Shown here: positions 19,902 to 31,821 of the stretch, piece by piece | How positions within the stretch are numbered: position 1 is the first letter of the stretch | How the letters are laid out: the number at the start of each line of letters is the position of its first letter | DNA from: Chloroflexota bacterium | GTDB lineage: Bacteria > Chloroflexota > Anaerolineae > Promineifilales > Promineifilaceae | DNA length: 32,925 nucleotides | Assembly (NCBI GenBank): GCA_019136785.1 | Contig: JAGVTM010000017.1 | Coordinates: forward strand, 1 to 32,925 | Direction: 5' to 3' | Translations under genes and position numbers: made by a program | The notes under the pieces: model-generated | What the model was told of the DNA's origin: nothing | The model's database searches: none | Seen by the model: the letters and a program-made list of their open reading frames with translations, nothing else

Positions 19902-19928
19902 TCTCCCAACTGGTACCCTCCTTCATGC

Positions 19929-19961
19929 AAAAAGGCGCGGAGATTCCCTCCGCGCCTTTTT
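19929..19961 (+). terminator. Intrinsic terminator of the fasciclin gene
   Basis: Perfect 14-bp stem (19929-19942 with 19948-19961), loop ATTCC, GC-rich core GGCGCGGAG and a TTTTT run closing the stem, 27 bp after the stop. The A-run on the left arm means it could also work for the minus-strand gene ending at 19998. Confidence 0.9.
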
Positions 19962-19997
19962 GCTTTCCGTTGGGCGGGTCGGCAACCCGCCCCTGCC

Positions 19998-20771
19998 TCA
20001 CCTGTACACAGTCGCCGGGCGCGTCGCCGTGATGAGAAAAAACGGCAAATGCACCACCTGCTGCCAGACCTCGCGCCGGCTGGCGCTGGCGGCTGCCGCT
20101 GCTGTCACTGTCAGCCGCTCCGCATCCGTCAGCGGCAAGCCGCGCAGCAAATCGAACCGTTCCTCAGCCGGCGGTGACAGCGTCGCCAATAAATCCACCT
20201 GCACGTCAAAGCCGCGCTCAGCCAGCAGCCCCGGCAGCTTGCGCCCCACCAGCGCGTCCGCGCCCGCCCGCGCCAGCGCCGCCCGCCACACATCAGCCAC
20301 AGCCACGTCCGCGGGGTGCTCCATCATGCCGCCATAATCGGGTTCCAGGGCTATCAGCGCGCCCCCCGGAGCCATCACGCGCCAAACTTCCGGCAGGACA
20401 TCCGCCACAGGCAGCCACAACCACACCAACTGCGTAAAAATCAGGTCAAATGCCCCCGCCGCAAACGGCAAACGCCGCGCATCCCCCGCCACCCGCGCCG
20501 CGCCTGCCACCAGGGAGTCCGCCGCCCCCGCGCCTGCGCGCCGAGCGGCGCGGGGGTGTGCCCGCAGGGCCGCTTCGTTCCGATCCAGCGCCGCCGTCAA
20601 ACCGCCGCTGCGCCGCGCCAGTTCCGCCGTAACCGCCCCATAGCCCGCCCCCAGGTCTAGCACCCGCCGCCTATGCGCCACGCCTATGCGCCGCAGCAGC
20701 CGGGCGCGCGCTGGCGCCAGCCAGGCGGATTGCCGGCAGAGCAAATCGAGCGGGGGCAAGTCAGCGCGCAC
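19998..20771 (-). CDS. Class I SAM-dependent methyltransferase
   Basis: 257 residues, very Ala/Arg-rich. Motif I VLDLGAGYGAV at 37-47, acidic Asp62 (AALDRNEAAL), motif GDARRLPFAAGAFDLIFTQ and PGGALIALEPDYGGMMEHP, the pattern of Methyltransf_11-type enzymes. The last 100 residues (LARAGADALVGRKLPGLLAERGFDV) resemble the C-terminal cap of small-molecule methyltransferases. The start is GTG 20771, 6 bp after the upstream stop at 20778, so the gene is probably co-transcribed with the 20778-21143 gene. The substrate is unknown. Confidence 0.85.
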   Translation of the reverse strand: MRADLPPLDLLCRQSAWLAPARARLLRRIGVAHRRRVLDLGAGYGAVTAELARRSGGLTAALDRNEAALRAHPRAARRAGAGAADSLVAGAARVAGDARRLPFAAGAFDLIFTQLVWLWLPVADVLPEVWRVMAPGGALIALEPDYGGMMEHPADVAVADVWRAALARAGADALVGRKLPGLLAERGFDVQVDLLATLSPPAEERFDLLRGLPLTDAERLTVTAAAAASASRREVWQQVVHLPFFLITATRPATVYR

Positions 20772-21159: not shown

Positions 21160-21615
21160 TTAGGGCCGAATATATTTCTGCACAAATTCGGCTGCATCCA
21201 GGCATTCAAATGCGCTAACCTCTTGCGCCAGGGAACGTACCAACTCTCGATTGGCCGAGATGAAACAATCTACATGACCTGTTTTGGCTGCCAGATAAAT
21301 TTCTAAATCTTCTCGAGGAACCAGGCCAGACTTCTCCAAGACACTCATTTCCGCACTGTCTGGCAGAACATATTGCACTTGCATACCTTGCCAGATGCGG
21401 GCAACTATTTCTCCGCCCCAATCTTTACCCTGGATTCTTTTGGCTACCCGTAAAATCTGTTCAAAAAGGACATCGGATACCGTAACTTCGACTTCGGTTT
21501 TTGCTTGTCCATAAAACCCTGCCCAGTGTAAGATGACGGCTTCTGGGCTGTCAGACAAAGAAGCGCCAATAATATAAATGTTTGTATCCAGGAAAACGCG
21601 CAAAGGCCTCGTCAT
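21160..21615 (-). CDS. PIN-domain ribonuclease toxin (VapC-like)
   Basis: 151 residues with the PIN acidic set: Asp10 (VFLDTNIYI), Glu52 (DVLFEQILRV), Asp103 (VPREDLEIYLAA) and Asp116 (HVDCFISANREL). PIN toxins use these to bind Mg/Mn and cleave RNA. The ATG overlaps the last codons of the upstream antitoxin gene (ATGA, 21612-21615), so the pair is translationally coupled. At 151 residues it is slightly longer than classic VapC (about 130), matching the PIN group that pairs with Phd-type antitoxins. The RNA target is unknown. Confidence 0.85.
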   Translation of the reverse strand: MTRPLRVFLDTNIYIIGASLSDSPEAVILHWAGFYGQAKTEVEVTVSDVLFEQILRVAKRIQGKDWGGEIVARIWQGMQVQYVLPDSAEMSVLEKSGLVPREDLEIYLAAKTGHVDCFISANRELVRSLAQEVSAFECLDAAEFVQKYIRP

Positions 21616-21944
21616 GCGCCATCGTCGGAGGAATATTCTACCTGGCCGCGTTCATTGGCTATCTCTTGCTTCACTTTGCGCACCATCTCTACAATAGCCT
21701 CTCTGTCTGTGTAGCCGGCATTCACCAGGGCTTGTCGAAATTGCTGGCGGAGTTGTTCTGCTGGCATTAACTCACGATGAGCATAATCCCCCATGCCAAT
21801 CAGCGCCTCAAATGAATCTGCGCCAATGAGGATAGCTTTAGCTTTCCCCCTTGAGGTAATCACTATCAGGTCACGGCCATAGCTGGCCTGGTTAATCCAG
21901 TGGGACAAATTACGGCTGGCTTCGCTAATGCTAATTTGGGACAT
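21612..21944 (-). CDS. Phd/YefM-type antitoxin
   Basis: 110 residues. The N-terminal Phd/YefM DNA-binding domain is clear: ISISEASRNLSHWINQA..GRDLIVITSRGKAKAILIGADSFEAL. The C-terminal 55 residues are helical and charged, the usual toxin-binding arm. In such pairs the antitoxin blocks the toxin and, with it, represses the shared promoter. ATG 21944 has GAGGAG at 21954-21959 with 9-nt spacing. A TATAAT -10 lies about 30 bp upstream. The gene leads the PIN toxin by a 4-bp overlap. Confidence 0.9.
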   Translation of the reverse strand: MSQISISEASRNLSHWINQASYGRDLIVITSRGKAKAILIGADSFEALIGMGDYAHRELMPAEQLRQQFRQALVNAGYTDREAIVEMVRKVKQEIANERGQVEYSSDDGA

Positions 21945-22033: not shown

Positions 22034-22960
22034 TTACCACTCCCTGGTCCATGGCTCGTATAGCTCGCAGTCGTCGCCCATGACAGAGTGGTAAAGGGCG
22101 TTGGCGGCGGGTGAATAGCCGCCGACAAAAGCCAGCGTCGCGCCCATGCGCTGCAGCCGCCGCAGTCCTTCGGTCATGAGCGCCTTGCCCAGGCCACGCC
22201 GCTGGTGTGCCGGCACAGTCGCCACCGGTTCAAAGTACGCGCTGCGGGTCACATCGTCAAACCAGATAGTGCAAAAGGCGGCAATCGCCCCATCGGGGGC
22301 TATGGCTACCAGGTCCAGGTCGCGGCGATAGAGGGGGGCTGTTTGAATATTGAGATACCAGGTGGGATCGTCCCGGTTTTCCACGGCAATCTTTATGTCC
22401 CCCTCATGGAAGCCCAACCCCGAAGCGTAGCAGCGCTCTAGCAACTCCAGGCCATCCCCCAGCGCACGAATGGTATAGCCGGGCGCCGGCGGCGCGGGTG
22501 CAATTGGGTCAGCCAACTCCCGCCGCCATTGGTGTTCGGGCCAATCCGCTTTGGCATAACCGCGCCGGGTCAGAACGTCCTGGCGCAGCCCATCCGCCGC
22601 TGGCGACCAGACGCATAGCCGCTTCCCGTTTTCTGGGGTAATTGCCGGCAGCCGCTCCTCAGCCACCGTCAGCATTTCCTCTTCCAGCGCCAGCGTGCGC
22701 CGTTCGGGATGCACCAACAAATGCGCTTCACCACGCCCGCCGTCCGGCATAAGCATGGCAATGAGTTCCCCGTCCGTCTCCCAAAGATAGGCGACATCTT
22801 CTAGCCCCACGCCGGCGCAGTTCAGGCAGGTATGCCAGCGGGCATAATCCAGCCGGGCCACATGCCAGCTTCGTGCCCGCCGGTCATTCAGCAAAAACAC
22901 CTGGCGCAAAAACGCGCGCATCCGCCAGAAATCGTCTTCTATTTGATAGGAGCGAAACAT
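22034..22960 (-). CDS. GNAT-family N-acetyltransferase
   Basis: 308 residues from ATG 22960. The C-terminal GNAT domain (about 155-300) has the acetyl-CoA loop motif A in FEPVATVPAHQRRGLGKAL (R/Q-x-x-G-x-G/A at 253-261), followed by MTEGLRRLQRMGAT and NALYHSVM. The N-terminal half (YQIEDDFWRMRAFLRQVFLL ... LLVHPERR) looks like a second, degenerate GNAT module. ATG 22960 has GAGGT about 9 nt upstream. GTG 22975, which overlaps the upstream stop as GTGA, is an alternative start. It is the last gene of the radical SAM operon. Its substrate is unknown; acetylation of a product or peptide of that system is only a guess. Confidence 0.82.
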   Translation of the reverse strand: MFRSYQIEDDFWRMRAFLRQVFLLNDRRARSWHVARLDYARWHTCLNCAGVGLEDVAYLWETDGELIAMLMPDGGRGEAHLLVHPERRTLALEEEMLTVAEERLPAITPENGKRLCVWSPAADGLRQDVLTRRGYAKADWPEHQWRRELADPIAPAPPAPGYTIRALGDGLELLERCYASGLGFHEGDIKIAVENRDDPTWYLNIQTAPLYRRDLDLVAIAPDGAIAAFCTIWFDDVTRSAYFEPVATVPAHQRRGLGKALMTEGLRRLQRMGATLAFVGGYSPAANALYHSVMGDDCELYEPWTREW

Positions 22961-22971
22961 AGCTGCAAACC

Positions 22972-24846
22972 TCACCGCCCACCGCCAGCGCAGGCGCAGG
23001 CGCAGGCGCAGCCGGCGCAGGCGCAGGCGCAGCTACCGCCGCCGCTTCTGCCGCCGCTGCCGCCAGAACTGGAAGCCATAGCCTTAAACACGTCGCCCGT
23101 TACCTTGTCCACGCCGCTGAGGTTGATATAGCCGCCGCTGCCAGGGGCTTTAACGCTGCCGGGCAAAATGGCTCCAGCCAGCGTGCCCATCGTGGTTTCC
23201 GCCCAGCCGGCAAAACCCGCGCCCACGTCCCCCAAACTGGGCACAGATGCCCCTCCAGACCCCTTGCCGCCGCCCAAAGAGACGCCGCCGCCTGACGCGG
23301 TAGGACGCACCCAATGGGGGAAGTAGGTGTAAGAGGGCCGGGCGAAAACGGTAGGATACTGATCCGACATGAGAATCCACTCCAGGTTGCGGTCTACCGT
23401 TTTCTCAAATTCGGGCAAATCGCCGATGCTTTTGGCTTCGGTGATGGCCCGATCCACAATGCGGCGGTAATAGTCGCGGGTTTCCTCCAGGTTGAACCCT
23501 TTCAGGCGGGCGGCGACAGTTTCCAGAAAGGCATTCATGGCTTTGCCGAAGTTGATTTGGGGTACGGGTTTGCCGGGGTTTTCTTCCAGCGCCTCCAGGA
23601 AGGGATGCTCGTACTTGTGCAGCACCAGCCCGGCGTCTTGCGCTGCCTGTCGCCGTGCCTGCTCTTTTTCTTTTTTGGTGGTGGGCGCGGCCTTGCCGTC
23701 GGCAGCGCGGAAGGGTTCGCTGATTTCCAGCTTCAGCGGGGAGGCTTCGACTTGCTGCACCACGCCTTTTTTGAGCAAGCCAAACAAGATGAGCGTCAGC
23801 ACTTTGTTGAGGGGCATTTCCAGCAGGGCGGCTGCTTCGGCGGCGGTCAGACCGCGTTTAATGCCGCCGCCTTCAACGCTGACGATGGGCGGCAGGTATT
23901 TGCTTTTGCGCTGCTTCAGACCGCGCTCATTGACAAAGATGAGGGCGATCAGGGGGATGAAGCTGAGCATGTGCAGGCCGGGGCTGCTTACGTAGAGGAG
24001 AATGAGGCCGCCGGTCAGCAAGAACCAGAGGCTCCAACCCGTACCGCCGGAGAAGCGCAAGAAGAGGAAGGAGAAGAGGAGGACGCCGAGAATGCCGGCA
24101 GCCATGCGCACCCCCGGATTCCCCACAAACCAGTTAATCGCCAGGTCAAAGACCGACTGCTCAATCACGCGCTCCATCACTGATTGCGAGAAAGAGACGG
24201 CTACCCGGTTCTGACCGGTCAAACGCGCTTCGGGGAACTCCCATAGCGCCACAGCCCGCCCCTGAAACAACGCTTTCTCGGTGAAGGGCACATCCTGATA
24301 CAGAATATCGTCTGGATTCACCCCTTCAGGCAAGTGAATGGCGATTTTTATGTCCGTCGTCCCCTGCACAAACTGCCCTTCAAACCAGGTGGGCGAGATT
24401 TGCAGCGAGGCCAGTTCTTTATTGGTCACATCCTGGTAAACCAGGTCGGGGATGGTAAATTCCAGGTGGAGTATGCCTGTGCCCGATGGCGGAATGGTAA
24501 ACCGGCCCAGGTGAATCTCCACAGCCTGGCTGACAAGTTCCGACGGGCGAATGTCTGTGACCGCCACGCCGCCCACCGAGGCAGACATGTTGCCAATGTC
24601 ATAATCGGGGGTAGGCATGCCGATGTCCACAATGTCAATGACGTGCCCGCCGGCGCTGTTTTGAAAGGTGATGTCATACACAATGCGTGCGGAGGCATCG
24701 CGCTGCACAAACACCTGCATCTCTAATTCAGGCACGGCGAAAAGATAATCCTGCGCCGCAGCGGGCGTCGCCAGCAGCGCCAACATGCAGACCGCCAACA
24801 GCAACGTCAGGCGGCTGATTTTTTCAAAGCGAGTCAAGTCAAACAT
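22972..24846 (-). CDS. DUF2207-like membrane protein with alternating Cys-Ala C-terminal tail
   Basis: 624 residues. Signal sequence about 1-31. An extracytoplasmic beta-rich domain (about 32-235) resembles DUF2207. Three TM segments lie at about 247-265, 271-287 and 291-305, followed by KQRKSK, which places the rest in the cytoplasm. A winged-helix-like segment (LTAAEAAALLEMPLNKVLTLILFGLLKKGVV, 333-363) and a helical region follow. The last ~80 residues are Gly/Ser-rich and end in seven cysteines at 606, 608, 610, 613, 615, 617 and 619, alternating with Ala, then GGGR. The tail is coded by repeats of TGCGCC. It lies 34 bp downstream of two RRE/SPASM proteins, so the tail is the likely site of modification (inference). 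Stop overlaps a possible GTG start of the GNAT gene. Confidence 0.8.
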   Translation of the reverse strand: MFDLTRFEKISRLTLLLAVCMLALLATPAAAQDYLFAVPELEMQVFVQRDASARIVYDITFQNSAGGHVIDIVDIGMPTPDYDIGNMSASVGGVAVTDIRPSELVSQAVEIHLGRFTIPPSGTGILHLEFTIPDLVYQDVTNKELASLQISPTWFEGQFVQGTTDIKIAIHLPEGVNPDDILYQDVPFTEKALFQGRAVALWEFPEARLTGQNRVAVSFSQSVMERVIEQSVFDLAINWFVGNPGVRMAAGILGVLLFSFLFLRFSGGTGWSLWFLLTGGLILLYVSSPGLHMLSFIPLIALIFVNERGLKQRKSKYLPPIVSVEGGGIKRGLTAAEAAALLEMPLNKVLTLILFGLLKKGVVQQVEASPLKLEISEPFRAADGKAAPTTKKEKEQARRQAAQDAGLVLHKYEHPFLEALEENPGKPVPQINFGKAMNAFLETVAARLKGFNLEETRDYYRRIVDRAITEAKSIGDLPEFEKTVDRNLEWILMSDQYPTVFARPSYTYFPHWVRPTASGGGVSLGGGKGSGGASVPSLGDVGAGFAGWAETTMGTLAGAILPGSVKAPGSGGYINLSGVDKVTGDVFKAMASSSGGSGGRSGGGSCACACAGCACACACAGGGR

Positions 24847-24880
24847 AGCTTCCTACCTTCTGCCTTCTTCCTTCTGCCCT

Positions 24881-26170
24881 CTATCTTCCGCCCTTTGTCG
24901 CCCAACCAGCCGGTTCGGCGGGACAGTCGGCAGCGCAAATAGCCAGACCAGGGCACATCTGGCAGCGGGTGGGGGCTTCCACGCGCCCCCGATAGCGGCG
25001 AAAGGCGGCATGATCCCAGATGGCTTCCCAGGAGTTCTGCAGGAGATTGCCGGCATTGGTCGCGGGGCCTCGTGCCGGCATCACCGATCCATCCGCCTCA
25101 ATCCGTACCGCCACATCCCCGGCGCAGCGCGGCCCCTGCTGCACCTGCTGCGCCAGCGTCAGACTCGGATCGCGCTGCACAGGCGGCAGCCACAGATAAG
25201 CCACGCGCGCTTCCTCCGCCTCCTCTTCCACCAGCGCCGCCACCTGGCGCATGGCGGGCGCAGGGATAGCCCCATCTTGCTCATCCGCGGCAGCAGCCAC
25301 GGCAAAGAAAGAGACGTTCGTCACATGCAGCGCCAGCAAGGCATTCAGCGTGGCTTCCAGATGATTAATCGTCGCTGTTACCAGCGGCGTCAGTCCCACA
25401 TCTGCCATTTCTAACATCTGCGTGCGGCGGAAAAGCGTCTCCGCCGCGGCATGGTCGCCGCTGCCCAGCAGCGCGTCGTGAACGGCGGCATCCGCCGAGG
25501 CATAGAACACGGTGACGTGATCCAACCCCGCCAGGGCCAGATCGTCCAACAAGCCGCCCGCCGCCATGTCGCTGGCGCGCCCGCTGACGCCGCAGATCAG
25601 ACCCAGGTCTTCGGCGCGTTCCACAGCGCGCGTCAGGTGCAGCGGGTTGGGGTTGGCGGGGAGTAGAATTGTCACGTGGGGGATACCCACGTCCCACAGA
25701 CGGGACAAAATGGGCATCATCTGTTCAGGTGCAGCCAACGGTAAGCTGGCTTCCAGGGGAGCCATCAGGGATGTTTTTCCAGGCAGGACAGCGGCATCCT
25801 CCAGGTTAAAGACCGGGTAGCGGTCGTCCGGCTGCGCCAGGTCGCGCAGCAGCAGCTTGACCTGAGCCAGATCGTGTTCCAGGCGCGCCGCCGGGCTGTC
25901 CTGAAAGCGGTCTTGTAAATCGTGCAAAATGTCCCGCTCAGACTGATCCGCCAGCAGCCCCCTGGCAATAACTACGCCCACAGGCGAAAGGCGGGCAGCA
26001 GCAGCAGCGTTGGCGATGAGCATCCCGCTGCCGTCGGGTTCAACGCGCAAATGCAGGCGCGTGATTTGCCCGTCCGCCTCGCGCACGGTGTGGTAGAGTC
26101 CCGGCGGGACGGGCGCGGGCGGTTGTGGGCGGCGCAGGGTAAAAATTTTGTCTAGCAAGCCTGTCGTCAT
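24881..26170 (-). CDS. Degenerate radical SAM/SPASM paralogue with RRE-like N-terminus
   Basis: 429 residues. It parallels the enzyme at 26219. Residues 38-112 are a PqqD-like (RRE-like) domain: LHLRVEPDGSGMLIAN...ARLSPVGVVIARGLL...ILHDLQDRF...LEHDLAQVKLLLRDL. Residues 130-345 keep the radical SAM barrel pattern (VGIPHVTILL, LTPLVTATINHLEATLNALL). The CxxxCxxC loop is absent, and the SAM-binding GGE is replaced by LLPANP. The C-terminal SPASM-like segment keeps Cys349, 403, 406, 412 and 416 (RCQMCPGLAICAADC), but lacks two cysteines found in the partner. It should not cleave SAM and may bind substrate or partner. GGAG (26179-26182) is 8 nt before ATG 26170. It ends 34 bp before the tail-protein gene. 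Confidence 0.8.
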   Translation of the reverse strand: MTTGLLDKIFTLRRPQPPAPVPPGLYHTVREADGQITRLHLRVEPDGSGMLIANAAAAARLSPVGVVIARGLLADQSERDILHDLQDRFQDSPAARLEHDLAQVKLLLRDLAQPDDRYPVFNLEDAAVLPGKTSLMAPLEASLPLAAPEQMMPILSRLWDVGIPHVTILLPANPNPLHLTRAVERAEDLGLICGVSGRASDMAAGGLLDDLALAGLDHVTVFYASADAAVHDALLGSGDHAAAETLFRRTQMLEMADVGLTPLVTATINHLEATLNALLALHVTNVSFFAVAAAADEQDGAIPAPAMRQVAALVEEEAEEARVAYLWLPPVQRDPSLTLAQQVQQGPRCAGDVAVRIEADGSVMPARGPATNAGNLLQNSWEAIWDHAAFRRYRGRVEAPTRCQMCPGLAICAADCPAEPAGWATKGGR

Positions 26171-26218
26171 AGCGTTAACTCCAGGAAAGGAAGAGGGAAG
26201 AGGGAAGAAGGTGGGTGG

Positions 26219-27895
26219 TCATTTTGGGGGAGATGTTAGGGGGATGACAGTGGGGGTGGGTGCGGCGGCGGAGAATGTCACGTGGCTGAGGGGAATGATT
26301 TTGGGCATTTCGCCGCCGGCGTCGTCGCCGCGTCCGCGCACATCGGCGCGCGTCATGTGGTCGGTGGGGATGAAGCCGGCGGTGTGCAAGCCAACCAGGT
26401 GAGAAGTGTTGGTGCCGCAGCCGCCAGTTGTACTACAGCCGCCGCTGCTGCAGCCGCTGCATCCACCGCCGTCAGCCACGCGGTTGCCGTCGCGGGCTTC
26501 GCGCTCAATGCGGCAGCCGCCGCCGCACAGGGGCAGGTCGGGGCATTCCCAACATTTTTCGGGTAAGCCTGCCCAGCGGGGGTCTTGTTCGCGGTCGCGG
26601 AAGGTGCGGAAGAGGTGGCTGTGCCAGATGGTTTCCCAGGGGTCGCGCAGGATGTTGCCGGCGCTGACGTAATAGGACTGGCAGGGCAGCACGTCTCCGT
26701 TGGGTTCGATGCACATGGAGTATTCGCCGGCGTTGCAGCGTTTTGCCCCAATTTCCAATTCAACGGGCGACATGCGGCAATATTCGGTGGGGGTGTACCA
26801 GAGGAAACGCATGCCCAGATCGGCGGCGTGGTCGCGCACGCGGATGAGGAGGGCGGGCATTTCTTCTTCAAAAATAGCGCTGGGATGGGCAAAGCCGCCG
26901 CCGCTGTAAATCATGCCGTTCATGGCAAAGGTGCGGATGCCCAGGGCGTAGAGGAAATCTATGATCTCCTCCACGTGCCCCATGTTGGCGCGCATGAGGG
27001 TGGTGTTGGTGATGACGTGGACACGGCTGTCCAGAGCGTTTTGGATGCCGCGCACGGTCTGGTGGAAGGATTTAGCCGCCATCATCTGGTCGTGGACGGC
27101 GGGACGGGAGGAGCCTAAGGTCACTTGTAGATGGTTTAGCCCGGCGTCCGCCAGGGTTTGCATGTAGGGCTGGTGGGCAATGCGCCGCCCGTTGGTGTTC
27201 AGCCCCACAATGTGCCCCAACCGGTCGGCGTAGGCGATGATGTCTGGCAAATCCGGGTGCAGCGTCGCCTCCCCGCCCGTCAAGATGAGATGGGGCACGC
27301 CCACAGCGTGCAGGCGGTCAATGACTTGAAACCAGGACTCTTTGGGCAGCGAGGGCATCTCATACCGATCCGGTTCGTTGTAACAATGGGCGCAGGCGTT
27401 GTTGCAGCCATAGGTTAGAGCCAGGTCTACTTTGTACGGGGCATGAATGGGGGTGCTGAACAGGGCGGTGTGTGGGATTTCCCCCAGAGAGCGTTCGCCC
27501 AGGGCGCAGGTGGGGCAGCCATTGTCCAGGCGGCGCAGGTTGTGCACCAGGTCGTACATTTGCCGCAGTTCGGCGTCCAGTTGGGCGCGGCTGACGCTGT
27601 GGTATTGGGCGCGCAACTGCTGCCGCGCCTGCGTCTGCGGCACGTCTTCCAGCGCCAGGTAGACCATAAGGGCGGCAGTGGGGTTGAGGTGAATGACGTC
27701 GGTGACGTCAATGAACAGGACGCCGGCGCCGTCCGCTTCCACCCGAAAGTGGAGGCGGCGGGTATCCAGGTGGTCGTGTTCGTTGCGCCGCTGCAGGCGG
27801 TAGGTGTGCAAACCGGGGGGAGGGGGAGAGAATGCCGGCATGGGCGCCAACCAACTACGGGCGCGCTGCCACAGGACGGTGGGCATGGCTACCAT
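26219..27895 (-). CDS. Radical SAM/SPASM peptide-maturation enzyme with RRE-like N-terminus and Cys-rich tail
   Basis: 558 residues. Residues 47-122 are PqqD-like (LHFRVEADGAGVLFIDVTDVIHLNPTAALMVYLAL...), an RRE that binds leader peptides in RiPP enzymes. The radical SAM core about 152-370 has the 4Fe-4S triad Cys164, Cys168, Cys171 (CNNACAHC) and GGEA at 207-210. The SPASM domain has Cys387, 395, 405, 448, 451, 457 and 461 (KCWECPDLPLCGGGC). An extra tail about 465-558 has four more cysteines (479, 482, 487, 493) in Gly/Ser sequence. SPASM enzymes make thioether or C-C links in peptides. ATG 27895 has AGGAGG at 27903-27908 and overlaps the upstream gene by 7 bp. Confidence 0.9.
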   Translation of the reverse strand: MVAMPTVLWQRARSWLAPMPAFSPPPPGLHTYRLQRRNEHDHLDTRRLHFRVEADGAGVLFIDVTDVIHLNPTAALMVYLALEDVPQTQARQQLRAQYHSVSRAQLDAELRQMYDLVHNLRRLDNGCPTCALGERSLGEIPHTALFSTPIHAPYKVDLALTYGCNNACAHCYNEPDRYEMPSLPKESWFQVIDRLHAVGVPHLILTGGEATLHPDLPDIIAYADRLGHIVGLNTNGRRIAHQPYMQTLADAGLNHLQVTLGSSRPAVHDQMMAAKSFHQTVRGIQNALDSRVHVITNTTLMRANMGHVEEIIDFLYALGIRTFAMNGMIYSGGGFAHPSAIFEEEMPALLIRVRDHAADLGMRFLWYTPTEYCRMSPVELEIGAKRCNAGEYSMCIEPNGDVLPCQSYYVSAGNILRDPWETIWHSHLFRTFRDREQDPRWAGLPEKCWECPDLPLCGGGCRIEREARDGNRVADGGGCSGCSSGGCSTTGGCGTNTSHLVGLHTAGFIPTDHMTRADVRGRGDDAGGEMPKIIPLSHVTFSAAAPTPTVIPLTSPPK

Positions 27896-28230
27896 TTGGG
27901 GGCCTCCTCGATCTGGTAACTGGTGTCACAGTAAGGGCAGTGTACAAAAATGGCCCCCGCTTTCACTTCAATGGAGTTCTTCTCCAGCGGCGCGCTGCAA
28001 TTCTGGCACTTGAGCTTTTCCAGGCTGACGTTCCCGCTCAGGTCAATTTTCTGCACGTTGGTTGTTTGCGTCACCTGTGGCTGCATGCGCGTCAGGTAAA
28101 TGACCACGCCCGCGGCCACCAACAAAACGCCGCCCACCACAAAGCGAATGACCTGCCCCTGCGCGCCAATGATAAACATCAGCCCCATAAACCCTAACAA
28201 CACAGCCACGATATAAACGACTATCTTCAT
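27889..28230 (-). CDS. Membrane-anchored zinc-ribbon protein
   Basis: 113 residues from ATG 28230 (AAAGGAG at 28240-28246, 9-nt spacing); a longer frame adds 19 non-conserved residues. Two TM segments (about 4-22 and 27-46) are followed by a cytoplasmic zinc ribbon: Cys75-x2-Cys78 (KLKCQNCSAPLE) and Cys98-x2-Cys101 (VHCPYCDTSYQ). It is the first gene of the operon and overlaps the radical SAM gene by 7 bp. It may dock the soluble enzymes at the membrane next to the Cys-tail protein (inference). Similar small zinc-ribbon membrane proteins are common and otherwise uninformative. Confidence 0.75.
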   Translation of the reverse strand: MKIVVYIVAVLLGFMGLMFIIGAQGQVIRFVVGGVLLVAAGVVIYLTRMQPQVTQTTNVQKIDLSGNVSLEKLKCQNCSAPLEKNSIEVKAGAIFVHCPYCDTSYQIEEAPKW

Positions 28231-28277
28231 CAGGGGAATCTCCTTTCTCCCGTACCGTTTGTAGCTAACAAACCCGA

Positions 28278-28309
28278 GGGTCATCATGACCCACTACAAC
28301 AAATTGTAG
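28278..28309. promoter_or_regulatory. Two palindromes at the radical SAM operon promoter
   Basis: GGGTCA-TCA-TGACCC at 28278-28292 and CTACAA-CAAA-TTGTAG at 28294-28309 are perfect short inverted repeats. The second covers the -10 element; the first lies just downstream of the predicted transcription start. They could be operator half-sites or leader hairpins. Confidence 0.5.
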
Positions 28310-28330
28310 GAAGCCCTGGCCTTTTGTCAA
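28303..28330 (-). promoter_or_regulatory. Sigma70-type promoter of the radical SAM operon
   Basis: On the minus strand: consensus -35 TTGACA at 28325-28330, 16-bp spacer, -10 TACAAT at 28303-28308. It lies 73 bp before the ATG of the first operon gene and is the best-looking promoter in the window. Confidence 0.7.
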
Positions 28331-28439
28331 TGCCTGCGTAAGGACTTTAGAAATCTGGCAGATTTTTGTAGTCTGCGTCGTCAACCTGTCATTTCGAGCG
28401 GTCTTCGGCGAGAAATTCCTCGTAAATGGCGAGTTGCGC

Positions 28440-28560
28440 GGGATTCCTCGTTTCACTCGGAATGACAACGAGCGTGAGTTGAGTGGGATTCCTCGTTTCA
28501 CTCGGAATGACAGGCGGAGCGAGTTGAGCGGGATTCCTCGTTTCACTCGGAATGGCAACG
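28440..28560. repeat. Tandem repeat, 45-bp period, ~2.7 copies
   Basis: The unit GGATTCCTCGTTTCACTCGG recurs at 28441, 28486 and 28531, with variable filler GAGTTGAG between. A degenerate relative (CATTTCGAGCG...CGAGAAATTCCTCG) precedes it at 28390-28422. On the minus strand the unit contains CATTCCGAGTGAAACGAGG, a kind of intergenic repeat common in environmental bacteria. It occupies the gap 28331-28573, which has no gene. Confidence 0.85.
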
Positions 28561-28573
28561 GGTAAGCCAGCAG

Positions 28574-30940
28574 CTAGGGGCGGGGCCAGGCGCAGTGGAC
28601 GTGGGTGCTGTGGCCGGGGTCGCCGGGGCCGAGCACTTCCGTGGCCCCCAGGTTGACGCACGTCTGCATGAAGCTGGCGTAGTAGGGATTGCTGCCGCTG
28701 ACGCCAATGCCGTTGATGATGTCCACATCGAAAGCCACGCCGACGTAGTGGCGGGAGTTGACGCTGTGGGAGCCGCCGGCAATGGAGGTGACGCGGTAGG
28801 TGTAGCTGTTTGCCAGAGCCAACATGCCTTGCAGCATGGGCACGTCCAGGTAGGTTTGCCCGCAAGGGGCGTTTTGGTAGCAGCTGTTCTGCGCCATTAA
28901 GCCGTTGGCGGTGTCCAGCATATTGTCCCAGGCGGTGGCCCCATCTTCGTTGTAGATGGGATCGGGCGGGGATGGGTGGAACGGGAGCAAGGAGATGCCG
29001 GCATGATTGATCACATTATTAGCCAATTCAGCGCGAGGAGACGTGCCCGGCTCCAGGCAAACCAGCGCCGACCAGGTGAGGGGCCCAACAATGCCGTCGG
29101 GGGACAGCCCTTTGGAGCTTTGGAAGCTGCGCACGGCGCCATCCGTGCCAGGCCCAAAGTCGCCATCAATGGTCAGGTTGTAGCCATATTTGTACACCAG
29201 GAGATGCTGCACGGCGCGCACAGCGTCGCTGTTGTACACGCCTTGCTGCACCTGGACGATGATCGCCTGCCAGGTGTTAGGCCCGACAATGCCATCTGCC
29301 GTCAAGCCGTGCGCGACCTGGAAACTGGTGACGCGGCTGGCGGTGGTGGGGCCGTAACTGCCATCAATGGTCAGGCTATAGCCGTGATGGCGCAGCAGGT
29401 ATTGGATGGCGTAGACGTTGGGCCCGCTGTTGTTGGTGGTCTGGCTGTGAATGGGCCAGCAGTTGCCGCCGGGGATGGGTGTGGGCGTGGGCGGCGGCGG
29501 GGGTGTCGGCGTGGGCGGCGGCGGGGTGCTGGTGGGGGACGGCGGCGCGGGTGGGTCGTTGCTGCAAACGAGCACCGACCAGGTTTGCGAACCAACGATG
29601 CCGTCTACGGTGAGCAGGTTGTGCGCCTGGAAGTCGCGCACGGCGCTGTCGGTGGCGGGACCAAAGACGCCGTCCAGGGTCAGGTTGTAGTTGTGGCGGT
29701 TCTTGAGCAGGAACTGCACCAGCCAGACGGGCAAGCCGGAATCGCCTTGCTGCACGGTGATGACCAGGGCGGGCCAGACGGCGGCGTCTACTATGCCGTT
29801 GACGGGCAAGCCGTTGTCAGCCTGGAACGCTTCCACGGCGGCGCGGGTGCTGGCGCGGAAGATGCCATCTACGGGAACGGTGTAGCCGTGGGCGCGCAGC
29901 AATACCTGGGCCACGGCGACGTTGAGTTGGTAGGTTCCTTGCTGGTAGGTGGGCCAACATGCCGGCAGCGGATCGGGAAAGATGACATCCTGGCTAACCG
30001 TGCTGTTGTCGTAAAAGGAAAGCAAAATGTCCTGCCAGGCCACGCCGTCATCCGCCAGCCATTTGGAATCCCACTGCCCCATGCAGTTCCCCTCCAGGCC
30101 CGCGTCCTGGCATTGGGTGTAGTAGGCGCGATAGAAGGTCTGGAAAATCTGCCCATTGCGATGAATGCGCCAGCCCCAGGTGGTGTCCACGGCGGCGTTG
30201 GTGCTTTCGTAACTGACAGCGGGGTTGTACACCTGGTCGCAGGTGCTGTCGAAAACGTCGGCGTCGCTCCACTTGCCCCCTTGATTGACCCAATACCAGC
30301 CATACGACTTGGCGGCAATGGCCCCGGCGCGCAGCGAGTCGGCGGGCCAGGAGGCGATCCACTCATTGGGCAGCACGTGCTTGACGTACTCTTTGAAGTC
30401 CACCACATCCACGTAGTAGGGGGCGTTGACGTTACAGGCGGTTTCGCCCGTAATGCGCACGCGAATGGTGGCGGGTGGGGTCACGTCCGAGGCGATGACG
30501 GGCGGATAGGCGGGCGGGGCGTCGGAATTGACCGCCAGCAGGGGGCGCTGCCAGGCTAACACCTGCGGCGGGGGCATGGTCAAAGTGACCTCCTGCGCCT
30601 GCAGCGCGGGCTCCAGGATCAGCGTATCCTGCCGCACCAGGCGCACGTTCTGGATTGTCCAGGTTCCGTAGCCGGGGGCCGTCACTACGACATCCACGGG
30701 CTGCACGGCTTCCGCCAGCAAAATCGGCGCAAAGGCAAAGCGCCCCTGAGCGTCGCTGCCGGCAGTCAGGTCAAAACGCGGCACGGACACCTGGGCTTTG
30801 GCCACGGGCAAGCCAGACTCCTGGGCAGTGACGATGCCCACCAGCCAGGCGGCGTTGGGATCGGGGACGGCAGAGGAAGCAGCCACGCGCCAGCCGAGAA
30901 AGATGAGGGCGGGCAACAAAAGGAAGAGGACTTTTTTCAT
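28574..30940 (-). CDS. SpoIID-like / peptidoglycan-binding x4 / M15 peptidase fusion, secreted
   Basis: 788 residues from ATG 30940 (GGAG at 30947-30950). Signal peptide 1-24. A carboxypeptidase-regulatory-like beta domain about 32-115. A SpoIID-like domain about 155-320 (VDVVDFKEYVKHVLPNEW.., SLRAGAIAAKSYGWYW, QVYNPAVS). Peptidoglycan-binding units at about 335-392, 395-458, 500-562 and 565-628, each with ...DGIVG...TW. A Pro/Thr linker at 461-490. A C-terminal M15 D,D-peptidase-type domain with SxHxxGxAxD (Ser729, His731, Asp738) and HVH (His780, His782) plus a possible catalytic Glu768. It should bind and cut cell-wall peptidoglycan outside the membrane. This domain combination is unusual. 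The 106 in-frame residues upstream of ATG 30940 look non-coding. Confidence 0.9.
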   Translation of the reverse strand: MKKVLFLLLPALIFLGWRVAASSAVPDPNAAWLVGIVTAQESGLPVAKAQVSVPRFDLTAGSDAQGRFAFAPILLAEAVQPVDVVVTAPGYGTWTIQNVRLVRQDTLILEPALQAQEVTLTMPPPQVLAWQRPLLAVNSDAPPAYPPVIASDVTPPATIRVRITGETACNVNAPYYVDVVDFKEYVKHVLPNEWIASWPADSLRAGAIAAKSYGWYWVNQGGKWSDADVFDSTCDQVYNPAVSYESTNAAVDTTWGWRIHRNGQIFQTFYRAYYTQCQDAGLEGNCMGQWDSKWLADDGVAWQDILLSFYDNSTVSQDVIFPDPLPACWPTYQQGTYQLNVAVAQVLLRAHGYTVPVDGIFRASTRAAVEAFQADNGLPVNGIVDAAVWPALVITVQQGDSGLPVWLVQFLLKNRHNYNLTLDGVFGPATDSAVRDFQAHNLLTVDGIVGSQTWSVLVCSNDPPAPPSPTSTPPPPTPTPPPPPTPTPIPGGNCWPIHSQTTNNSGPNVYAIQYLLRHHGYSLTIDGSYGPTTASRVTSFQVAHGLTADGIVGPNTWQAIIVQVQQGVYNSDAVRAVQHLLVYKYGYNLTIDGDFGPGTDGAVRSFQSSKGLSPDGIVGPLTWSALVCLEPGTSPRAELANNVINHAGISLLPFHPSPPDPIYNEDGATAWDNMLDTANGLMAQNSCYQNAPCGQTYLDVPMLQGMLALANSYTYRVTSIAGGSHSVNSRHYVGVAFDVDIINGIGVSGSNPYYASFMQTCVNLGATEVLGPGDPGHSTHVHCAWPRP

Positions 30941-30988
30941 GAGGTACTCCAATGTACGGGCAAAAGAGATGAAAACAAAGGCAGGTAA

Positions 30989-31016
30989 AATATAGCGGAA
31001 AGCGGGCGATTGACAA
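30989..31016 (-). promoter_or_regulatory. Promoter of the cell-wall enzyme gene
   Basis: Minus strand: -35 TTGTCA at 31011-31016, 16-bp spacer, -10 TATATT at 30989-30994, 48 bp before ATG 30940. The remainder of 31017-31118 shows only G-rich sequence. Confidence 0.55.
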
Positions 31017-31118
31017 AGCGGGGGAATAAATAATTGGGGATTGGGGGAATGAGTGAATGGGGGAAGTCTGCGGCTTACTGGGGCATGGGATTGCCTGGGT
31101 TTTAGGGGTGCGGTGCGC

Positions 31119-31147
31119 TTGAGTCGGGCAGGTAAATGGTTTATAAT
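31119..31147 (+). promoter_or_regulatory. Promoter of the two-gene membrane operon
   Basis: -35 TTGAGT at 31119-31124, 17-bp spacer, -10 TATAAT at 31142-31147. It is divergent from the 30989-31016 promoter and gives a leader of about 95 nt before ATG 31249. Confidence 0.7.
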
Positions 31148-31248
31148 AGCTGGCAGGCGAGGGATTTTGAGCAGGCGTAGATTCGGTATGTGATGAATCT
31201 GGGGCGCACAATTGGGCCACCCCATACAATCCTCTTCTGGAAGAGCCA

Positions 31249-31821
31249 ATGCAAACATGGACTACAAACTCCCAATTTATGCGCCGTCTGCTGGGGCTTT
31301 TGCCGCTGGTTTTCTTTGGGGCGCGCCTGATGCAGTTAGCCAGCGAGGGTGAGGTCGCGCACATATTGTGGATGTGTCACGTATCCAACCTGCTGTTGGC
31401 GTTGGGGCTTTTGCTGGGGCAGCGGGAGTGGGTGCGCGTCTCGGTCTTGTGGCTGCTGTTGGGCGTGCCTCTCTGGCCAATTGAAATTGTGCGCACGGGC
31501 GTCATAGCCTGGACTTCTATTGGCACGCATTATATGGGGCTGGCGGTGGGGTTGCTGCTCCTGCCACAGATGGGTATGGGTAAGCGTTCCTGGCTGTACG
31601 CCTGGATATGGTTTCTGGGGCTGCAACAGGCAACTCGTCTGTTCACGCCTGCGGCGTTGAACATCAACCTGGCCCATGCTGTTTATCCCGGATGGGAAAA
31701 ACTGTTCCCCGCCTACTGGCAGTACTGGCTTTTCACGGCGACCGGATCGCTGTTGGCTTTGTGGCTGGCGGCGCAGGCGTTGGGGACAAAATGGTTTGTG
31801 CGGGGGAAGAAAGATGAATAA
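31249..31821 (+). CDS. Integral membrane protein, unknown function
   Basis: 190 residues, about six hydrophobic segments (around 13-27, 38-56, 63-83, 88-108, 117-128, 158-176). Polar loops carry LASEGEVAHILWMCHVSN and AALNINLAHAVYPGWEKLFPAYWQYW. His/Trp/Tyr residues cluster near the membrane edge, which could bind a cofactor, but no known motif is recognised. ATG 31249 follows GGAAGAG at 31239-31245 (close 3-nt spacing); ATG 31279 (MRRLLGLL) is an alternative that would remove ten residues. The stop overlaps the start of the next gene by 8 bp, so the two proteins are probably made together and may form a complex. Confidence 0.7.
   Translation: MQTWTTNSQFMRRLLGLLPLVFFGARLMQLASEGEVAHILWMCHVSNLLLALGLLLGQREWVRVSVLWLLLGVPLWPIEIVRTGVIAWTSIGTHYMGLAVGLLLLPQMGMGKRSWLYAWIWFLGLQQATRLFTPAALNINLAHAVYPGWEKLFPAYWQYWLFTATGSLLALWLAAQALGTKWFVRGKKDE

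Follow-up and report, generated by a model that had tools for sequence, protein, structure and literature searches.

Comparative genomics of a membrane protein with a Cys-Ala tail and its proposed radical SAM modifying enzyme in bacteria and Asgard archaea

Radical S-adenosylmethionine (SAM) enzymes that carry a RiPP recognition element (RRE) and a SPASM domain are known to mature ribosomally synthesized and post-translationally modified peptides (RiPPs). In the sactipeptide, ranthipeptide and streptide systems, an enzyme combining an RRE, a radical SAM core and a SPASM or twitch domain (e.g., SkfB, CteB, SuiB) is linked to a cysteine-containing core, and a similar combination occurs in the DNA studied here, a window of 32,925 nucleotides from a Chloroflexota bacterium. 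Its cassette of minus-strand genes (Table 1) encodes a zinc-ribbon protein (ZNR), an RRE/radical SAM/SPASM enzyme (RSAM), a paralogue of this enzyme (PSEUDO), a membrane protein ending in alternating cysteines and alanines (TAIL, with the CA tail CACACAGCACACACAGGGR) and, further downstream, a methyltransferase (MT). A Cys-rich core and an SkfB/CteB-like enzyme fold are shared with sactipeptides and ranthipeptides, whereas thioethers are only predicted here. Unlike in radical SAM RiPPs, the core is the predicted cytoplasmic tail of a membrane protein of about 520-700 residues and is near-invariant across phyla, and the cassettes hold a conserved methyltransferase but no conserved protease or exporter. 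As in RiPP systems, a radical SAM core with an RRE and a genetically linked protein with a core segment are present, but a short precursor, a cleaved leader and product release or export were not found. No description of the CA-tail system was found in open-licence PubMed Central (PMC) text.

Among membrane proteins, those of the TIGR04222 type with Cys-rich tails were proposed as substrates of MNIO enzymes, with the tails predicted to be periplasmic, and more than a quarter of the TIGR04222 proteins have no tail cysteines (PMC12452194). Both these proteins and TAIL are large, multi-domain membrane proteins in which a Ser/Gly- and Cys-containing C-terminal segment is the proposed modification site; in the CA-tail system, however, the enzyme is a radical SAM protein instead of an MNIO, and the tail is predicted to be cytoplasmic instead of periplasmic and is strictly invariant. 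DUF2207 proteins (PF09972/PF20990) have an N-domain outside the cell, transmembrane (TM) helices and a cytoplasmic Gly/Ser-rich C-terminus (PMC10457818). TAIL shares this arrangement, but typical DUF2207 members encoded nearby end in Cys-free Gly runs, and the CA-tail proteins stay below the Pfam threshold. GeoRSP also joins an active radical SAM/SPASM enzyme to a SPASM partner without the radical SAM motif and includes a PqqD-like domain, but the CA-tail system scores far below its cutoffs (TIGR04303/TIGR04304; 98 of 400 and 15 of 300 bits). We know of no CA-tail target of GeoRSP, and to our knowledge no function has been assigned to DUF2207/TIGR04222-type proteins, for which the CA-tail system hints at one.

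In the window, TAIL carries seven cysteines within its last 19 residues, exactly as counted in the first-pass annotation of this DNA, and its sole other cysteine lies in the signal peptide. Among 121 complete tails, encoded by 115 distinct DNA sequences, six protein versions occur, all of which follow the formula (CA)2-5-G-(CA)3-4-GGGR and form the exact C-terminus. The codons for Cys, Ala, Gly and Arg vary freely by position, and as 115 DNA versions encode only six proteins, drift is excluded. In an alignment of 36 TAIL members the tail columns are invariant, with a mean identity of about 30% over the whole protein. Across 396 genomes of the source organism's class, the (CA)4 DNA pattern was present in 71 versus 5 for a reversed control pattern; these controls and the codon analysis reject chance or low complexity as the origin of the tail. 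All relatives retrieved with the remaining part of TAIL have the same tail at their end, and since tail-free searches, with RSAM or with the whole TAIL protein, reach the same tails, their invariance is not a product of the DNA pattern. Chance matches outside the TAIL family, nine in the collection scan described below and five in the class scan, were set aside. A tail of 15-20 residues kept almost letter-perfect in organisms as far apart as Chloroflexota and Asgard archaea, on proteins that are otherwise about 30% identical, argues for a fixed biochemical job. In one family (f51; L089, L090, L091, L092) the CA-tail protein is duplicated in tandem, with both tails intact and of different lengths.

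The tail and RSAM strongly co-occur. For the class survey, tail matches were curated by locus reading and four shorter tails were included; 68 of the genomes have tail and RSAM together, 2 the tail only, 5 RSAM only and 321 neither (Fisher p about 9e-68, a value that overstates independence because the surveyed genomes are related). When 59 relatives were searched independently with RSAM and with TAIL, largely identical genome sets were returned. A 26-base signature of CACAGCACA, scanned against 84,980 species genomes, matched at least 118 stretches, 80 of which were read as loci. Among the matches listed, nearly all TAIL-family loci share the same tail, with RSAM adjoining where the contig allows, and the carriers comprise Chloroflexota, Armatimonadetes (Armatimonadota), Pirellulales (Planctomycetota), Acidobacteriota, Aminicenantes, Zixibacteria, Coatesbacteria, Fermentibacteria/Hyd24-12/Sabulitectum, Edwardsbacteria, Zipacnadia and a deltaproteobacterium, as well as the archaeal Hod-, Heimdall-, Sigyn- and Lokiarchaeota. 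RSAM was found in 13 of the 14 tail genomes checked outside the class, including all five Asgard genomes, the exception being the Armatimonadetes MAG (metagenome-assembled genome) behind L218. Three Asgard RSAMs form a clade of their own in the enzyme tree, and an Orc1/Cdc6 gene on the Lokiarchaeota contig argues against bacterial contamination of the latter.

The type of tail also follows the enzyme, as RSAMs of (CA)4 tails fall into one clade (support 97) and the enzymes of a sister tail into another (support 100). This sister tail (...ACHSACHSACHSACVHDACHSAC...) consists of CHSAC repeats, with about 13 cysteines in the last 55 residues, and is carried on a DUF2207 protein whose gene neighbours encode an RRE/radical SAM enzyme of its own clade, a coiled-coil protein and a zinc-ribbon-like protein. 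In the class survey, the CHSAC tail was present in 36 genomes, its enzyme in 37 and both in 35, and the reversed pattern gave no matches. The CHSAC-type protein passes PF09972 and scores 39 bits against a cutoff of 43 for TIGR04222. Since DUF2207-type proteins near two CHSAC loci (L036:14596-16632, L145:8033-9943) end in plain Gly runs without cysteine, a Cys tail is no mere habit of the DUF2207 fold. The predicted CHSAC system follows the design of the CA-tail system but uses another repeat. Three loci of the (CA)3 type lie inside the (CA)4 enzyme clade. One of them, L130, has its tail shortened; at the two others, L169 and L181, a (CA)4-clade enzyme stands beside a truncated TAIL paralogue without N-domain and Cys tail (L169:4274-5191, L181:4405-5433), with an intact (CA)3 TAIL nearby.

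Clustering of the gene neighbourhoods left ZNR, RSAM, PSEUDO, TAIL and MT as the only broadly conserved families. From the loci read, the gene order is ZNR-RSAM-PSEUDO-TAIL in the source family and ZNR-TAIL-RSAM(-PSEUDO) in remoter families. In most CA-tail loci, the neighbour of ZNR is TAIL or RSAM, and the ZNR residues C94, C97, C117 and C120 and the EPKW end are invariant in all 28 homologues. MT appeared in the clustering as an additional conserved neighbour (33 loci); its hidden Markov model (HMM) scores 273 bits on the open reading frame (ORF) in the window, which also matches Methyltransf_11 (3e-14). In the window, MT lies 2.2 kb from the cassette, with the GNAT gene, a phd/PIN pair and one ORF in between; in most CA-tail loci the HMM finds a partner, commonly overlapping the cassette or within a few bases of it, and MT also adjoins Asgard cassettes (L165, L166, L206), Hodarchaeota and Heimdallarchaeota included. 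LahSB, which was among the matches of MT, was discarded as only one of several generic matches. The five packed minus-strand genes described in the first-pass annotation are all in place, with overlaps of 4-7 bases or gaps of 34-48 bases, but the proposed extent of the system, 22034-28330, overlooked MT, and the cassette reaches further. The GNAT gene, which had been counted as part of the system, is not conserved, its homologue being absent from the cassettes first searched, and the phd/PIN pair was rejected as a local insertion. No protease or exporter is broadly conserved in the clustered neighbourhoods, a distant protease being possible; nor did these neighbourhoods hold a further broadly conserved family such as an MNIO, for which no HMM search was made.

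The RSAM of the window matches Radical_SAM (2e-25) and SPASM (3e-12) in Pfam. The RRE ascribed to it earlier holds for the family, in which 36 of 41 relatives match PqqD (best 6e-8), but in the window copy alone the match is sub-threshold (E 0.09). The structure model consists of an RRE, a TIM barrel and a SPASM domain, and the nearest solved folds are SkfB, SuiB, PqqE, anSME and CteB. PSEUDO is indeed a cluster-less paralogue, as it matches SPASM in Pfam and keeps the SPASM cysteines but has lost CxxxCxxC. The two SPASM genes, however, are not always together, as had been supposed: PSEUDO was absent from the TAIL-RSAM loci read in Asgard archaea (the three TAIL-RSAM-MT loci included), Aminicenantes and Fermentibacteria, and from L030, L105 and L162. 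Dead radical SAM paralogues (that of the window, L096, L099, L129 and others) form two separate groups in the enzyme tree; catalysis was perhaps lost twice among them, and a single origin is also possible. At its C-terminus (26219-26500), the window RSAM has a Cys/Gly-rich extension of its own, GGGCSGCSSGGCSTTGGCGT, which is partly present in same-family copies only. It was considered as a second core and set aside, being variable and missing in most relatives.

In most members read, TAIL begins with a signal peptide and a beta-sandwich domain outside the membrane, which it then crosses with one or three TM helices before continuing through a K/R-rich stretch into a cytoplasmic domain. This order predicts that the CA tail faces the cytoplasm, in agreement with the earlier topology. 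The tail is disordered in the structure model of TAIL (pLDDT below 50). The model resembles ribophorin I and the N-domain of M1 aminopeptidase (TM-score 0.2-0.25 of the query), but these PDB matches reflect a generic beta sandwich only and were rejected as a clue to function. The earlier label 'DUF2207-like' is appropriate at the family level, but the window protein itself has no significant Pfam match. The gathering scores of PF09972 and PF20990 were reached by none of 36 CA-tail proteins, and TIGR04222 gave no match in the window protein and weak matches in 3 of 36 relatives (best 7e-4), below its curated cutoff; membership of TAIL in either family was therefore rejected.

Near-perfect co-occurrence, adjacency across phyla, an enzyme clade that tracks the tail type and the predicted cytoplasmic side of the tail strongly support the predicted pairing of RSAM with the tail as its substrate, which the first-pass annotation had put forward. 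The system is probably a protein-borne, RiPP-like one, in which RSAM modifies the Cys-Ala tail, MT adds a further change and the product is retained by the membrane protein. A fixed (CA)nG(CA)3-4GGGR segment would be carried behind a flexible Gly/Ser linker at the cytoplasmic C-terminus of a DUF2207/TIGR04222-like membrane protein; RSAM would bind TAIL, generate 5'-deoxyadenosyl radicals and modify the Cys-Ala units, and PSEUDO, where present, may assist as a non-catalytic partner. The most likely modification would be Cys-centred cross-links, e.g., thioethers joining Cys to adjacent carbons of the backbone or of Ala; thioethers are favoured because the solved structure nearest to RSAM belongs to a sactipeptide maturase and Cys makes up almost half of the core. 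MT may then methylate the tail at sulfur, nitrogen or the C-terminal carboxyl group. The modified tail would most likely remain on the membrane protein, where its cysteines would form a metal- or redox-active site, a function that is guessed from the thiols.

Several observations weigh against this reading, in which the chemistry of the tail is a prediction. The RSAM profile is about as close to haem- and PQQ-type enzymes (AhbD, NirJ, PqqE) as to peptide maturases, so that by this similarity a small-molecule substrate is possible. G364 (97% complete) and G343 keep TAIL, PSEUDO and MT, but an active RSAM was not found in them; similarly, the enzyme was not detected in the MAG G417, which has the tail. 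G043, G044, G163, G190 and G373, which are drafts, with several of the cases at contig ends, have RSAM without a complete tail protein. In G135, G205, G380 and family f7, tail and RSAM lie at separate loci of one genome. The first-pass annotation had named as contrary evidence a Cys-less homologue in a genome that keeps the SPASM genes and a tailed homologue lacking SPASM genes nearby. No complete Cys-less homologue was found next to the enzyme, the truncated copies at L169 and L181 sitting beside tailed ones, and partnerless cases are few and in draft genomes, but the separate loci tell in part against the claim. Overall, the earlier interpretation is partly supported.

TAIL could alternatively be a true RiPP precursor, i.e., a very large leader from which the modified tail is cut off to become a free peptide or cofactor in the manner of PQQ or mycofactocin; the modification step would be the same, with only the fate of the tail being different. 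A core-like segment behind a Gly/Ser linker, an RRE enzyme accompanied by a tailoring methyltransferase and the tandem tail genes of one family would suit such a precursor. However, the core is near-invariant across phyla, whereas typical RiPP cores diversify, and the lack of any broadly conserved protease or exporter in the clustered neighbourhoods speaks for a permanent site on the protein, so that release appears rather unlikely. It is quite improbable that the tail acts as an unmodified, metallothionein-like thiol cluster binding metal or Fe-S, with RSAM and MT producing a distinct small molecule or cofactor sensed, carried or needed by TAIL. The CxCxC spacing would fit metal thiolates, a zinc-ribbon protein co-travels and the enzyme is as near to AhbD, NirJ and PqqE as to peptide maturases, but the RRE on the enzyme, the correspondence of tail type and enzyme clade, and an invariance of the Ala and Gly residues and of the terminal GGGR that is stricter than metal binding requires all argue against it. 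That the tail is a signal for sorting, anchoring or assembly, or a drift-maintained repeat, chemically unconnected to the enzyme, as the extreme C-terminal position and the exact GGGR end might suggest, is very improbable given the excluded drift, the co-occurrence with RSAM and a cytoplasmic location unlike that of known C-terminal sorting tags.

With modification by RSAM and retention on the membrane protein as the preferred reading, the CA-tail system points to an undescribed, very widespread chemical modification of a protein tail. Tentatively, we suggest that it may represent a modification class of many bacterial phyla and Asgard archaea, in which a radical SAM enzyme and MT install a fixed Cys-Ala cofactor on a receptor-like membrane protein as a permanent cytoplasmic site, with CHSAC as a second code on the same scaffold. 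If RSAM does modify the tail, radical SAM peptide chemistry would concern not only small secreted products but also a stable site on a large membrane protein, and the system could be located by a simple DNA signature of 24 letters. The hypothesis is testable since cultured carriers exist, namely Ornatilinea apprima (L163) and Leptolinea sp. HRD-7 (L193).

Table 1. Coordinates of the cassette features in the window and of the CHSAC sister loci
Feature	Position	Strand	Basis
ZNR, small membrane protein with C-terminal zinc ribbon (CxxC...CxxC...EPKW)	27889..28287	-	ORF list; homologues
RSAM, RRE/PqqD-like domain, radical SAM core and SPASM; proposed tail-modifying enzyme	26219..27895	-	domain matches, fold
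RRE of RSAM (PqqD-like winged helix), residues about 28-121	27533..27814	-	PqqD in relatives; three-helix winged-helix topology
CxxxCxxC of RSAM (C164, C168, C171)	27383..27406	-	invariant in 41 sequences
SPASM cysteines of RSAM (C387, C405, C448, C451, C457, C461)	26513..26737	-	
PSEUDO, RSAM paralogue without CxxxCxxC; optional partner	24881..26170	-	domain match, tree, loci
TAIL, 624 residues: signal peptide, extracytoplasmic beta-sandwich domain, three TM helices, cytoplasmic domain, Gly/Ser linker, CA tail	22972..24846	-	
CA tail, residues 606-624 of TAIL; proposed core	22975..23031	-	invariance across relatives
GNAT, not conserved in cassettes	22034..22975	-	ORF list
MT, class I SAM-dependent methyltransferase; fifth conserved member	19998..20771	-	HMM; Methyltransf_11
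Sigma-70-like promoter TTGACA-16-TACAAT upstream of cassette	28303..28330	-	11/12 consensus matches; inferred
Terminator-like palindrome, 16 bp, directly after MT	19927..19963	-	sequence
CHSAC sister system loci	L036:6868-8787, L037:9927-11894, L139-L147		

The one strong promoter claimed earlier corresponds to the sigma-70-like site of Table 1, but four such sites were found in the region against 2.7 expected; as this is not above chance, a cassette promoter is plausible but unproven. ZNR probably starts at 28230, which would match the starts of its homologues, and the palindrome behind MT is likely to mark the end of the transcription unit. Between the cassette and MT, a Phd-type antitoxin gene is followed by a weak PIN-like ORF (21160-21944), forming a toxin-antitoxin-like pair. 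Immediately upstream of the cassette, a direct repeat coding for SFRVKRGIPLNS units (28265-28558) is probably intergenic, and beyond it lies the gene of an 894-residue protein that combines SpoIID/LytB and carboxypeptidase-regulatory domains with four peptidoglycan-binding ones (28574-31258).

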